Shown here piece after piece: positions 8,561-13,300 of a DNA stretch of 64,000 nt. Position 1 is the stretch's first letter. Every line of letters begins with the position of its first letter. A model generated the notes under the pieces. The model was given only the letters and a program-made list of their open reading frames with translations, had not been told where the DNA came from and ran no database searches. This DNA is from Actinoplanes sp. M2I2 (GTDB taxonomy: Bacteria > Actinomycetota > Actinomycetes > Mycobacteriales > Micromonosporaceae): contig NZ_JALPVJ010000027.1 of the NCBI RefSeq assembly GCF_023544445.1, forward strand, positions 1 to 64,000, written 5' to 3'. The position numbers and the translations under genes are program-made.

Positions 8561-8587
8561 CGGGCCGCCCGCGAAGCGTGCGGCCCG
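8561..8587. terminator. Hairpin between convergent genes
   Basis: CGGGCCGC (8561-8568) pairs with GCGGCCCG (8580-8587), with an inner CGC/GCG pair around a GAA loop. It lies between the convergent ends at 8557 and 8636. There is no T-run, as is common for GC-rich actinobacterial terminators. Confidence 0.55.
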
Positions 8588-8635
8588 CTCTCCGGGGAGC
8601 AGTGCGCGAGCGGTCGGGCGACGGTTCGCCGGTGC

Positions 8636-9562
8636 TCAGCCGGGCCACCCGCCAGGGGTCCAGGCATCGTCCGGGGCGGGAGTCCGGGCCTCGCCCAGAT
8701 ACCGGCGCAACGCGGTCAGGCTGGGATGCCGGTTGTCCGATCGGTATAGCAGGGAGTGCGGATAGACCGGCGTCGGGGTTCGGAGCGGGATGCGCCGCAG
8801 ATCGTGGCCGGCCGGCCAGGCGTACCGGTCACCGGCGCCGATCAGGGTGGCCAGCTCGGCGGACTCCGCGATGGCGTCCATCAGCGCCTCGGTGCCGAAG
8901 TTGGGGCCGATCCGGTCGATGCTCAGGGCGAAGTCGGCGGTCAGCTCCTGATAGAAGGCGGCCCATTCACTGCCCGGACTGATGCCGGGGATCCAGATGC
9001 GATGCCCGGCGAGCTCGGCCGGGCGCAGCGCGGGCGCGGCGGCGAGCGGGTGGCCGGGGCCGGCGAGCAGCTGGAGAGGATCGTGCAGAGCCGGTACGGC
9101 GGTGACGCCTGGGGGCAGCGGCCCCGGCACCGCGCGGAAGGTCGCGTCGATCTCCCCGGCCAGCAGGGCGCCGGCCGCCGTCGTCACGGTCGCGCCGGGC
9201 AGCGTCACCACGTCCAGGTCGATGCCCGGGGCAGCGCGATAGAACGCGCGCAGCGCCTGGGCCGGGGCGATGCGCAGATGCAGCACATCGACGCGCAGAG
9301 CCCGCTCGCCGGGCCGTACCGAAGCGGTGGCCCGGTCGACGGCGCGCAGCACTTCCCGGGCGTGCGGCAGGAACGCCCGGCCGTCCAGGGTGAGATGGGC
9401 GCCTCGAGCCGTACGGGTGAACAGCGTGGCGCCGAGGCCGTGCTCCAGCTTGGCGATCCGTTTGGAGACCGCTTGCTGGGTCAGGTGCAGCTCGACGGCC
9501 GCCTCCTGGAACTGCCCGGTGTCCGCGACGGCGAGGAACGTTCGTACAGTCTCGAGGTCCAC
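8636..9562 (-). CDS. LysR-family transcriptional regulator
   Basis: A 308-residue regulator. Residues 1-60 form the LysR winged helix (DLETVRTFLAVADTGQFQEA, LTQQAVSKRIAKLEHGLGAT). Residues about 90-290 form the periplasmic-binding-like effector domain. It is divergent from an MFS transporter that starts 73 bases away, a common arrangement in which the LysR protein activates or represses the exporter. The GTG start at 9562 puts the helix-turn-helix at the N-terminus; the frame is open to 9637 but that part looks non-coding. No ribosome-binding site is obvious. The inducer is unknown. Confidence 0.9.
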   Translation of the reverse strand: MDLETVRTFLAVADTGQFQEAAVELHLTQQAVSKRIAKLEHGLGATLFTRTARGAHLTLDGRAFLPHAREVLRAVDRATASVRPGERALRVDVLHLRIAPAQALRAFYRAAPGIDLDVVTLPGATVTTAAGALLAGEIDATFRAVPGPLPPGVTAVPALHDPLQLLAGPGHPLAAAPALRPAELAGHRIWIPGISPGSEWAAFYQELTADFALSIDRIGPNFGTEALMDAIAESAELATLIGAGDRYAWPAGHDLRRIPLRTPTPVYPHSLLYRSDNRHPSLTALRRYLGEARTPAPDDAWTPGGWPG

Positions 9563-9575
9563 AACCAACGGTTGT
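9561..9575. promoter_or_regulatory. Inverted repeat at the lysR start
   Basis: ACAACC-AAC-GGTTGT is a perfect 6-bp inverted repeat with a 3-base spacer. It overlaps the GTG start of the LysR gene and lies in the divergent region facing the MFS gene. It is a candidate LysR autoregulatory site, though shorter than the usual T-N11-A box. Confidence 0.4.
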
Positions 9576-9635
9576 ACCAGGACGATCAATTCGTTGTTGG
9601 ACCGCTGGTGGGCGCCCCTGATCGAATCCCTGGAC

Positions 9636-10859
9636 ATGGGTCAGGCATTCAATGGGTTGTGGGCTGCCTTCGTGGCTTCCACCGTGGGGACGTGGCTGGG
9701 CTTCGGGGCCTTTCCGCTCATCGCCATTCAGGTGCTGGGGGCCGGCCCGGCCGCCGTCTCCGCCCTCGCCGCCACGGGGCTGGCCGCGGGGGCGCTGCTC
9801 GCCCTGCCGCTGGGCCCGTGGGCCGAGCGGCACCGCAGACGGCCGGTCATGATCGCAACGGACATCGTGCGGTTCGGGGCCCTGCTCAGCATCCCGGTCG
9901 GCTACGGCCTCGGCCTGCTCAGCTACACCCACCTGGTGGTCGTGTCGGTGATCGGGGCGGCGGCGAACATCGCTTTCACCGCGGCGAGCGGGGCATATCT
10001 GAAGAGCGTCGTCGCGCCGGACCAGCTGCTGCCGGCCAACGCGCGCTTCGAATCCACCGCCTGGACGGCCATCGCGCTCGGTCCCGCACTGGGCGGTGCG
10101 GCCGTCAGCCTGCTCGGGCCGGTGGTGACCATCTACGCCAATGCCGCCGGATTCCTGCTTTCCGGGCTGGCGCTCGCGGCGATCCGGGTGCGGGAGACAC
10201 CCGTACGGACGAGGCCCGTCGAGCGGCTGCGCGCGGCCGCCCTGGCCGACGGCTGGCGGTTCATCAACGCCGATCGCCGGTTGCGAGACCTGTTCCGGAA
10301 CACGGTCGTCGTCAACGCCCTGATCATGGCGACCGAACCGCTGCTGGCCGTCCTGCTGCTCCGCGACCTCGGCTGGCCGGCCTGGCAGTACGGACTGGCC
10401 TTCAGCGTGCCCTGCGTCGGCGGCCTCCTCGGGGCGCGGCTGGCCACCCGGCTCGAGGCGCGTCACGGGCGGGCCCGCGTGCTGGCCGTGGCCGGGGTGC
10501 TGCGAGTCGTCAGCCCCCTGGGTCTCGTGCTCGCCACGCCTGGCCCGATCGGCTTCGGGCTGGTGGTCGTGGTGGAGTTCGTCGTGATCACGGGCATGGG
10601 CTTGTTCAACCCGCTGCTCGCCACCGAGCGCCTGCAGCGGGTGCCGGACGACCGGATCGGACGGGTGCTGACCGCCTGGACGGTGACCACCACGGGAGCG
10701 ATCGCGGTGGTGACCGCGCTGTGGGGCGTGCTGGCCGCCCTGACCAGCCCGCGGACCGCCATCGGGATCGCCGGCGTGCTCCTGCTGTTCACCCCGCTGC
10801 TGCTGCCGGACAGCGACCGCGCTCGTCGGCCCCGGCCATCCGCCGGTCCGGTCACGTGA
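9636..10859 (+). CDS. MFS transporter
   Basis: A 407-residue polytopic membrane protein of about 12 helices. It begins MGQAFNGLWAAFVASTVGTW, typical of the MFS_3/enterobactin-exporter-like group. The loop 2-3 motif appears as GPWAERHRRRPVMI. Substrate is unknown; drug or metabolite efflux is the usual role in this group. The ATG at 9636 is 73 bases from the divergent LysR start, so regulation by that protein is likely. The frame extends far upstream, but that part overlaps the LysR gene and is a shadow. Confidence 0.85.
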   Translation: MGQAFNGLWAAFVASTVGTWLGFGAFPLIAIQVLGAGPAAVSALAATGLAAGALLALPLGPWAERHRRRPVMIATDIVRFGALLSIPVGYGLGLLSYTHLVVVSVIGAAANIAFTAASGAYLKSVVAPDQLLPANARFESTAWTAIALGPALGGAAVSLLGPVVTIYANAAGFLLSGLALAAIRVRETPVRTRPVERLRAAALADGWRFINADRRLRDLFRNTVVVNALIMATEPLLAVLLLRDLGWPAWQYGLAFSVPCVGGLLGARLATRLEARHGRARVLAVAGVLRVVSPLGLVLATPGPIGFGLVVVVEFVVITGMGLFNPLLATERLQRVPDDRIGRVLTAWTVTTTGAIAVVTALWGVLAALTSPRTAIGIAGVLLLFTPLLLPDSDRARRPRPSAGPVT

Positions 10860-11026
10860 CGGTCCACGACGGATCGACGCCGATAACAGTCGCATAACGC
10901 CAGGCGATGGAGGCCATCCAGGGGATCGTCCGTTCCTGGTGATTTGCGGCGAAGGCCGTGGCCCGGTACAGCTGACTCCTCACAAGTTCATAGGCAATTC
11001 CTAGGCGGCGTTGATAGTCCTTCGAC

Positions 11027-11437
11027 GTGCTGACTGAGACCCGCCCCGCGACCGGCACCGCCCGAGTGCTGGTCGTCGATGACGAGCCCGCCATCTCCAC
11101 GCTGCTCAGCGCGACCCTGCGCCTCGTCGAGTTCGACGTGCGGGTGGCCGACACCGGTCACCGCGCGTTGCTCGCGGTCGAGGAGTTCGAGCCCGACCTG
11201 GTCCTGCTCGACGTGATGCTGCCCGACCTGAACGGCTTCGACGTGGCCCGGCGGCTGCGCGCCGCCGGCTCGCGGGTGCCGGTGCTCTTCCTGTCGGCCC
11301 GCCATGGCCTGGACGACCGCATCGTCGAGTCGGGCGTGTACCACCTGCGCCGCAAGATCGACAACGTCGGGCCGCCGCTCATCCACACCGTCCGCGGCGT
11401 CGGCTACGCGCTCCGGGTGCCCCGCGGCGATGACTGA
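11027..11437 (+). CDS. OmpR/PhoB-type response regulator with large internal deletion
   Basis: A 136-residue product, against about 230 for the family. Residues 12-97 are a normal receiver start: VLVVDDEPAI (acidic pocket), VLLDVMLPDLNGFDVARRL (phospho-acceptor Asp about residue 64) and VLFLSARHGLDDRI. The next residues, VESGVYHLRRKID and IHTVRGVGYALR, are the recognition helix and C-terminal hairpin of the winged-helix output domain. Missing in between are the receiver's conserved lysine and last strand/helix, the linker, and the first two thirds of the DNA-binding domain, roughly 90-100 residues. The join near base 11323 keeps frame. The downstream kinase overlaps its stop and looks intact. 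The product is probably non-functional or has a changed role; an assembly error is possible. GTG start. Confidence 0.8.
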   Translation: MLTETRPATGTARVLVVDDEPAISTLLSATLRLVEFDVRVADTGHRALLAVEEFEPDLVLLDVMLPDLNGFDVARRLRAAGSRVPVLFLSARHGLDDRIVESGVYHLRRKIDNVGPPLIHTVRGVGYALRVPRGDD

Positions 11438-12962
11438 GATGCCGTTCCGGCGCTGGCGGCACTGGACGCTGCGTTCCCGCCTCGTGCTGGTGGTCGCGGT
11501 GCTGACCGCGGTGGCGCTCGTGCTCGCCAACGTCGCCGGGCTGCTGCTCATCCGCAGCTACCTGATCGACCGCAGCGACGACCAGCTGCGCGGGATGGCC
11601 GGCCCGTTCGCCCATTCCCGGCCGGCCGGCCTCGCGATGCCGGGCCGGGTCCCGGTGTCCGGTCAGCACTACGACACGGGGGTGAGCCCGCGAAAACTGG
11701 TCGCCCGTCTCGGCCCCGACCACGTCGGCTTCGTCTACACCCCGGACGGGACCTTCGTTGCGTCGCAGAGCTCCGAGGTCGACGTCGCCCGTCCGGCGGT
11801 CCCGTCGCTGACCGAGATCGAGCTGCCCTACGGGGTCGGGGAGCCGTACACGGTCCGGGCCGGCGACGGCAGCGCCGACTGGCGGATGATCGCGGTGCGC
11901 AACAAGGTCACCGGGGCGACCGCCGTGATCGGCCTGTCCCTGTCCGAGGTGGATCAGACCACCGAGCGTCTGCTGATCATCGACTTCGCCGTGAGCCTGC
12001 TCGTGCTCGCCCTGCTGGGGCTGGGAGCCGCCTTTGTCGTACGGCTGGGGTTGCGGCCCTTGACCGACATGGAACGCCTGGCCACCGCCATCTCCGCCGG
12101 CAACCTGAGCGGCCGGGTGGCCGACACCGATCCGCACACCGAGCCGGGCCGGCTCGGGCGGGCGCTCAACTCCATGCTCGGCCGCATCGAGGCCGAGGTC
12201 GGCGCGCGTACCGCCTCCGAGGGCCGGATGCGGCAGTTCCTCGCGGACGCCTCGCACGAGCTGCGCACCCCGCTCACCTCCATCCGCGGCTTCGCCGAGC
12301 TGTACCGGCGGGGCGGCGTCCAGCCGGGCCCGGCGCTCGAACGCATCGAGTCGGAGGCCGGGCGGATGAGCGTGCTGGTCGAGGACATGCTGGTGCTGGC
12401 CCGGCTCGACCAGCAACGCCCGCTCGCCCGCCGCCCGGTCGACCTGCTCGCGGTCGCCGCCGACACGGTCCGCGACGCGCACGCCCGCGCCCAGGGGCGG
12501 GTGGTGCGGCTGGCCGGGCTGCGCGACGACGACGGGACCTTCGAGCCGGCCACCGTGCTCGGCGACGAGCACGCGCTGCGCCAGGTCGCCGCCAACCTCG
12601 TCGCCAACGCGCTCCAGCACACCCCGGCCGGGGCCGAGGTCACCGTGCGGGTCGGGGTACGGCCGGCCCGCCCGCCGGCGCCCGGCAGCGTGGTGTCCGA
12701 GCCCGTGTCGCCCGCCGGTGACGTCGCCGTCCTCGAGGTGGCCGACGACGGGCCGGGGATAGCCGCGGAGCACGCCCCACGGGTCTTCGAACGGCTCTAC
12801 CGTGCCGACGCGAGCCGCTTCCGCGGCAAGGGCGGCGGCTCGGGACTGGGCCTGTCGATCGCCGCCGCGTTCGTGCACGGCCACGGCGGCCGGGTCGAGC
12901 TCGAGTCGCCGCCGGGCGGGGGAGCCACCTTCCGCGTGGTGCTCCCGGCGACCGGGCTTTGA
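11430..12962 (+). CDS. Sensor histidine kinase
   Basis: A 510-residue membrane kinase. Transmembrane helix 1 is at about residues 18-38 and helix 2 at about 185-208, bracketing an extracellular sensor of about 145 residues. A HAMP domain follows (LRPLTDMERLATAISAGNLS). The dimerisation domain carries the phospho-accepting histidine in FLADASHELRTPLTSIRGFA (about residue 275). The ATP-binding domain has N (NLVANALQHTP), G1 (DDGPGIA), F (FERLYRAD) and G2 (GGSGLGLSIA) boxes. The ATG at 11430 overlaps the regulator's stop (ATGACTGA), so the pair is translationally coupled. Because the partner is truncated, the natural phosphorelay target is uncertain. Confidence 0.93.
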   Translation: MTEMPFRRWRHWTLRSRLVLVVAVLTAVALVLANVAGLLLIRSYLIDRSDDQLRGMAGPFAHSRPAGLAMPGRVPVSGQHYDTGVSPRKLVARLGPDHVGFVYTPDGTFVASQSSEVDVARPAVPSLTEIELPYGVGEPYTVRAGDGSADWRMIAVRNKVTGATAVIGLSLSEVDQTTERLLIIDFAVSLLVLALLGLGAAFVVRLGLRPLTDMERLATAISAGNLSGRVADTDPHTEPGRLGRALNSMLGRIEAEVGARTASEGRMRQFLADASHELRTPLTSIRGFAELYRRGGVQPGPALERIESEAGRMSVLVEDMLVLARLDQQRPLARRPVDLLAVAADTVRDAHARAQGRVVRLAGLRDDDGTFEPATVLGDEHALRQVAANLVANALQHTPAGAEVTVRVGVRPARPPAPGSVVSEPVSPAGDVAVLEVADDGPGIAAEHAPRVFERLYRADASRFRGKGGGSGLGLSIAAAFVHGHGGRVELESPPGGGATFRVVLPATGL

Positions 12963-13105
12963 GTGGAACATCACCGACGAGGACACCCGGCAGGTGAAAT
13001 CTCAGCTGGCCGAGCCGCCTTCGGTGCTGTACGCGCCGTTCGCCCGAGAAGCGAGGGGCCGCGCGCTCTCCCCACCGACGCCGTCCCGCTGACACAATGC
13101 GGGGC

Positions 13106-13300
13106 ATGGACGAAGCGACTCGAGAACGAGACGACTCCGTAACTGGTGAGCCGGGGATCAACCGGCGCGCGTTCTTCGGCCGGGCCCTGCTGCTGGCGGG
13201 CGGGGCGGCCACCGTGCTGACCCTGTCGGGCTGCCCGGGTGGCGGCGGCGGCGGCGACGACGATGACGATGACGATGACGGTGGCGACGACGACGATTAG
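13106..13300 (+). CDS. Tiny Tat-type lipoprotein with poly-aspartate tail
   Basis: A 64-residue protein from ATG 13106 (67 from 13097). The N-terminus has NRRAFFGRALLLAGG, a twin-arginine signal, leading into a hydrophobic stretch that ends LTLSGC, a usable lipobox. If cleaved there, the mature product is only about 21-22 residues: Cys-Pro, a run of Gly, then eight Asp, two Gly and four Asp. That would be a short acidic peptide anchored by lipid on the outer membrane face, possibly binding cations. The Asp run comes from GAC/GAT repeats. No named family is recognised. It stands between the two-component genes and the LAL regulator on the same strand. The call rests on the signal motifs and could be wrong if the frame is not translated. 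Confidence 0.6.
   Translation: MDEATRERDDSVTGEPGINRRAFFGRALLLAGGAATVLTLSGCPGGGGGGDDDDDDDDGGDDDD

Follow-up and report, generated by a model that had tools for sequence, protein, structure and literature searches.

A 136-codon open reading frame in the genome of Actinoplanes sp. M2I2 begins and ends as a PhoP-like response regulator with its middle missing, and it stands directly before the gene for an intact sensor histidine kinase. The locus lies within a 64,000-nucleotide stretch of contig NZ_JALPVJ010000027.1 that was analysed as a whole and is referred to here as the window. The question it raises is whether the fusion is a new kind of regulator, an error of the assembly, or a gene that is being lost. 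It looks like ordinary gene loss, with a signalling module caught decaying, rather than a new kind of regulator; at a probability of roughly 0.84, we favor an apparently recent, single-lineage, loss-of-function deletion in the regulator, in a module whose exporter is also lost. The features discussed below are collected in Table 1.

Table 1. Features at the truncated two-component locus, in window coordinates.
Feature	Position	Strand	Remarks
LysR-family regulator gene, part of the replacement of the HlyD adaptor	8636..9637	-	Read by eye from the sequence
MFS transporter gene, other part of the replacement of the HlyD adaptor	9639..10859	+	Pfam MFS_1
Possible 3' remnant of the upstream HlyD-family adaptor gene	10922..10942	+	Reads ..IVRSW-stop like the adaptor end of relatives; weak
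Conserved stretch before the regulator	10967..11026	+	Kept in the window; read as promoter/operator
Internally deleted PhoP-like (OmpR/PhoB-type) response regulator gene	11027..11437	+	GTG start, open, 136 codons
Deletion junction CGCATC	11318..11323	+	Join can be placed anywhere within the hexamer
Intact sensor histidine kinase, cognate by position	11430..12962	+	ATG at 11430, stop at 12960-12962; Pfam HAMP-HisKA-HATPase_c
Site of about 3.7 kb absent relative to relatives	12956-13077	+	In relatives: HlyD, ABC ATPase, MacB-like permease, DUF5666-like protein

Per Pfam searches, residues 14-98 of the 136-aa product match positions 1-85 of the 111 in the Response_reg profile (E 1.2e-19), and residues 95-129 match positions 41-77 of the 77 in Trans_reg_C (E 9.2e-08); together with the orthologues described below, these matches make both remaining pieces homologous to the OmpR/PhoB-type response regulator family. 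The phosphorylatable aspartate of LLDVM is present, but the receiver, which in full would have an acidic pocket and a conserved lysine along with the phospho-aspartate, is incomplete, as is the winged-helix DNA-binding domain, of which only the Trans_reg_C part just given is found. The stretch that is lost holds the lysine of the KPF motif, receiver beta5 and alpha5, the linker and the first half of the DNA-binding domain, and the KPF lysine and other residues within it are invariant in all 31 aligned full-length relatives. The first-pass annotation had described an in-frame deletion joining the start of a receiver to a recognition helix, with both the frame and the coupled kinase intact. The reading frame is indeed open and a stretch is indeed missing from it, but what is retained is most of the receiver, from beta1 to beta4, and not its start alone. 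The intact kinase was borne out as well, since HAMP, HisKA and HATPase_c stand in one open frame as in an orthodox membrane histidine kinase, and this frame overlaps the regulator's stop by 8 bases.

A search of 60 relatives with the kinase as the query gave 28 loci in the same genus (L010-L037) whose kinase orthologue is full length. In all 28, the regulator is full length and carries both retained pieces in one frame; as these orthologues align with the window before and after the gap, the homology is far beyond chance. Between the two anchors they hold 104-109 codons that the window does not, and the three nearest (L010, L011 and L012) hold 106, or 318 bp; the 90-100 missing residues given in the first-pass annotation were therefore too few. 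Full-length regulators are also the rule among 49 loci from the genome collection, whose genomes are partly shared with the 28, where a near-full-length regulator precedes the kinase match in 46, a partial match in one and none in two, and a locus from another family of the order (L038) likewise has the full-length form. Judged against its orthologues, the gene has lost essential parts, as a pseudogene would. The idea that the short form might be a feature of the clade was rejected, as none of the 28 same-genus orthologues shares it, and the fused form was seen in one genome only. We also rejected a move of the missing stretch to another place in the genome: a search of the host's own genome found no close copy and yielded paralogues only, the best match (67% identity) lying in another regulator. 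Of the options that had been offered for this gene, a deletion is the one well supported, by the 28 full-length orthologues and by a short direct repeat, the hexamer CGCATC, which stands at both breakpoints in four (L010, L011, L042 and L044) of the six near relatives compared and not in the other two (L012 and L045). As a separate observation, in G031, a genome in an assembly of about 560 contigs, the kinase and regulator matches (L098, G031:C391) are each split in two, with about 218 bp between the regulator pieces, which may be real or may reflect poor sequence; this genome is outside the 28 orthologue loci, and the genome profile below scores it as having both kinase and exporter.

The kinase is 59-75% identical to its 28 same-genus orthologues. 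Its closest named relatives are those of P. maris, P. pyxinae, P. polyasparticus, P. aksuensis and A. solisilvae, and in the kinase tree the window falls within a supported set of ten rows (100/99) made up of these five, P. bogorensis, P. lichenicola, P. ovalisporus and G034. Judged from these sequence relationships, the host belongs to the Actinoplanes/Paractinoplanes group.

For the fusion, an AlphaFold2 model has block-mean pLDDT values of 87-97 over residues 11-90 and of 51-72 over residues 91-136 (overall mean 79.0, pTM 0.62). A control model of the natural P. maris regulator reached a similar overall confidence (mean 80.1, pTM 0.55). Its confidence likewise drops just past beta4 (61-76 over residues 91-130) and in two loops, but over residues 201-240, the recognition helix and wing, it reaches 79-92, versus 51-72 for the equivalent residues of the fusion. 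By E-value, the top PDB matches of the fusion model are full-length PhoP chains spread over both pieces at an rmsd of about 10, and receiver-only matches with an rmsd near 3 align about 91-97 columns.

Divergence of the retained codons was measured against 25 outgroup rows, with the ten near rows and the fast-changing L026 and L027 set aside. Over all retained codons, the amino-acid divergence of the window regulator is 0.134 versus 0.080-0.103 in the ten near rows (bootstrap 0.0015 against their mean, 0.062 against the largest). With the codons near the join removed, the values are 0.120 versus 0.090-0.110 (bootstrap 0.10 and 0.51, respectively). Synonymous divergence of the regulator is ordinary and the amino-acid divergence of the kinase is not raised (0.220 versus 0.178-0.255). 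A general decay of the retained regulator is thereby weakened as a candidate, with the amino-acid excess concentrated within 8-9 codons of the junction; since there is no significant excess away from the junction and none in the kinase, decay past the deletion itself is not demonstrated.

Private residues were counted in an alignment with 37 relatives, namely L010-L037 and nine named loci; the other named loci among L039-L057 were omitted, most because they repeat included genomes and two (L055 and L056, Micromonospora) because they are of another genus. Over the columns in which the remaining rows are unanimous, the window regulator carries 4 private residues out of 69, L026 has 5 and each other row at most one, and the window kinase has an ordinary 2 of 160 (the largest for any row is 3). 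Two tyrosines just past the join, invariant in the 37 relatives, are G and H in the window. At the nucleotide level, 13 of 390 bases are private to the window regulator, and these cluster on both sides of the join (11300-11345), with 6 of 48 lying within 24 nt of it versus 7 of 342 elsewhere (Fisher p 0.002). We would like to note that this clustering was looked for after the alignment had been seen; taken as the largest over six half-widths, it has a permutation p of 0.003 (pool of 429 positions, 390 of them eligible). Such a cluster would be expected if a recent deletion came with mutations close by, or if the sequence is poor at this point, and is not a sign of prolonged decay.

Outside the regulator, collinearity with P. 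maris (L039) holds on both sides of the pair and breaks twice, per blastn. Upstream, window 8567-10966 corresponds to L039 2590-5210, an interval that in P. maris holds an HlyD-family adaptor together with an ORF that matches no Pfam family and in the window holds the LysR and MFS genes. The LysR gene was not found in loci L010-L087 within their limited flanks, and the nearest MFS homologues (76-77%) lie in two relatives on contigs other than that of the two-component pair. The possible adaptor remnant matches the adaptor end of L044 at 17 of 21 bases, and blastn of this region against six loci gave one 17-bp match (94%, to L057:5202-5218, E 0.085); on the LysR side the same comparison gave four short matches of 20-38 bp, those to L044 and L039 in reverse orientation. 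Downstream, one blastn block ends at window 12955 (L039 7517) and the next begins at window 13078 (L039 11283). No exporter remnant was found there by blastn against the six loci, as the matches merely extend the next collinear block in L039, L044 and L041. With tblastx, the matches listed at the three break regions include many that are short and weak. Just beyond the downstream break, a small 64-residue ORF (13106-13300, plus strand) was noted. By eye, its start (RRAFFG..LSGC) resembles a twin-arginine/lipobox signal and its tail is rich in aspartate; in P. maris, a stretch that looks much the same by eye lies between the exporter and the LuxR gene.

Across the Actinoplanes relatives (L039:3528-11184 and L040-L057), the order of genes is conserved as HlyD, PhoP-like regulator, kinase, HlyD, ABC ATPase, MacB permease and DUF5666-like protein, the last assigned at 24.2 bits, under the Pfam cut-off of 27. 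Together, the genes from HlyD to the DUF5666-like one may form a single exporter module under common regulation. The pair has an HlyD gene on either side in 27 of the 28 same-genus loci, the exception being L026 (from G018), and in all 19 named loci L039-L057 (two of them Micromonospora, and several from genomes shared with the 28); MacB is present in 18 of these 19, with the contig of L046 ending before the MacB position. In the more distant loci L058-L087, HlyD genes of the exporter kind were not found at E 1e-5 despite a full-length regulator in most, which makes the link between pair and exporter a feature of this clade. The loss of these flanking genes from the window had gone unremarked in the first-pass annotation. 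In the host's own genome the exporter genes have distant relatives only, the best matches being 39% for MacB, 31% for the upstream HlyD, 31% for the downstream HlyD and 56% for the ABC ATPase, whereas near relatives share 83-94% in MacB and ABC. Each searched exporter gene finds its best match at C5:228453-231606, which looks like a paralogous HlyD-ABC-MacB set that might take over the exporter's role; many of the relatives with the true orthologue likewise have MacB paralogues listed at 38-42%.

We profiled 36 same-genus genomes, including the host's own, for presence of the kinase and MacB by searches with each. A MacB orthologue is present in 29, of which 28 also have the kinase, and absent in seven, of which two, the window genome and G018, have the kinase (Fisher p 0.0003 with genomes treated as unrelated, that is, uncorrected for phylogeny). 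The tendency of pair and exporter to travel together in the genus supports, and does not prove, the exporter as the target of the pair. The exporter-less G018 has a regulator that is full length but fast-changing; as this genome and the distant loci L058-L087 keep their pairs without these HlyD genes, such a pair can persist without this exporter. In G005 (L101, G005:C50:9000-20000), the exporter and a full-length regulator have no kinase match beside them, a loss of the kind complementary to that in the window.

The conserved stretch before the regulator contains a direct repeat, TTCATAG-GCAA-TTCCTAG (10987-11004), which is exact in the window and in L039. The same 18 bases are found in at least L010, L011, L012, L042 and L015, and many other rows of the upstream alignment carry variants, often ATTCAAAG in the second half; the upstream stretch of L052 did not align.

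Taken together, we propose that exporter genes were lost on both sides of a PhoP-like two-component pair and that about 318 bp were removed in frame from the regulator, probably from one copy of CGCATC to the other, which slipped replication or microhomology-mediated joining could have produced. The product keeps beta1 to beta4 and the aspartate; with the lysine, beta5-alpha5, the linker and half of the winged helix gone, neither switching nor DNA binding would be expected of it, and the regulator has thus probably lost its function. Retention of the frame, a one-in-three outcome by chance, counts against this. The kinase and the upstream stretch are still intact, which would leave the kinase without its neighbouring partner. 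If the exporter was the target of the pair, as we infer, its loss may have relaxed selection on the regulator, although the events may have come in either order.

The main alternative, though a very unlikely one, is an artefact of assembly or sequencing, by which 318 bp dropped out of a gene that the organism carries at full length. The genome is known from a single assembly of 68 contigs, with no second for the strain or species in the genome collection (from which records of the host's own genome were possibly omitted), and poor local sequence would also give private bases clustered near the join. A 6-bp repeat, however, is too short for the usual collapse of repeats in assembly. The reading frame is kept across the join and, given the two other losses at this locus, local loss of genes is the simpler explanation. 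The kinase, in turn, may have been kept because it drives another PhoP-like regulator, such as that at G000:C1:475611-476312, with the old regulator dispensable. The unraised kinase divergence and the presence in the same genome of paralogous regulators with up to 62% identity to the full-length P. maris regulator would agree with this, but the C1 regulator has a kinase of its own nearby (C1:474047-474748) and a recent deletion accounts equally well for an intact kinase. We regard redirection of the kinase as unlikely, while noting that it is compatible with a loss-of-function deletion and that both can be true together.

A further reading takes the fusion as a working mini-protein (a kinase-binding decoy, a phosphate sink or a small DNA-binding protein) kept for damping or redirecting the kinase. 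The open frame, the intact upstream stretch and overlapping kinase, the confident prediction of the beta1 to beta4 part, and the lack of a clear excess of change away from the junction are what such a protein would have. Nevertheless, it would have to do without residues invariant in 31 of 31 full-length relatives, including the KPF lysine, and without the two tyrosines after the join; its predicted C-terminal part is poor where that of the P. maris control is good, and it is known from one genome only. We give this little more than a slim chance, and the suggestion in the first-pass annotation of a tiny phospho-receiver with a retained DNA-recognition helix fares poorly on the same evidence, with the model confident for beta1 to beta4 alone. 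Slimmer still is the chance that selection has maintained the short form as a receiver fragment that docks on an otherwise orphaned PhoR-like kinase and shields or redirects it after exporter loss; if this were true, a kinase could be rewired to another regulator without cross-signalling.

With a loss-of-function deletion as the preferred reading, the locus is a snapshot in which the exporter is gone, the regulator is broken and the kinase and upstream stretch are intact. In this genus, the module is complete in most genomes, and in some both the kinase and the exporter are missing. The pattern of presence and absence ties an apparently uncharacterised PhoP-like pair to an HlyD-ABC-MacB exporter, and the window offers a natural case for asking what becomes of a kinase whose partner is lost. 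No paper was found that joins two-component systems, MacB, HlyD and Actinoplanes, and the available portions of the literature on natural regulator deletions or orphaned kinases yielded nothing on this locus.

The closest known systems include the full-length orthologues of the group, such as that of P. maris (L039:5271-5999), with which the window protein shares 85% identity over the aligned residues. The Actinoplanes/Paractinoplanes orthologues in general share with the window the conserved upstream stretch and the kinase gene just downstream, but unlike it are full length and have the HlyD-ABC-MacB exporter on their flanks. The same Pfam families as in the MacAB-type exporter (HlyD adaptor, ABC ATPase and MacB permease) flank the pair in relatives, whereas the orthologous exporter is absent from the window genome and the more distant paralogous set stays on C5. 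Among solved structures, Mycobacterium tuberculosis PhoP, of the OmpR/PhoB type, is one of the top matches both by sequence (9ji3 and 3r0j) and by fold (5ed4); the likeness covers both retained pieces, and relative to PhoP the window protein is without the receiver end, the linker and the first half of the winged helix. The available portion of PMC4832192 reports M. tuberculosis PhoP sites as 7-bp repeats with a 4-bp spacer, and the repeat at 10987-11004 has the same 7-4-7 direct arrangement before the gene, which would make it the putative box of the regulator itself.
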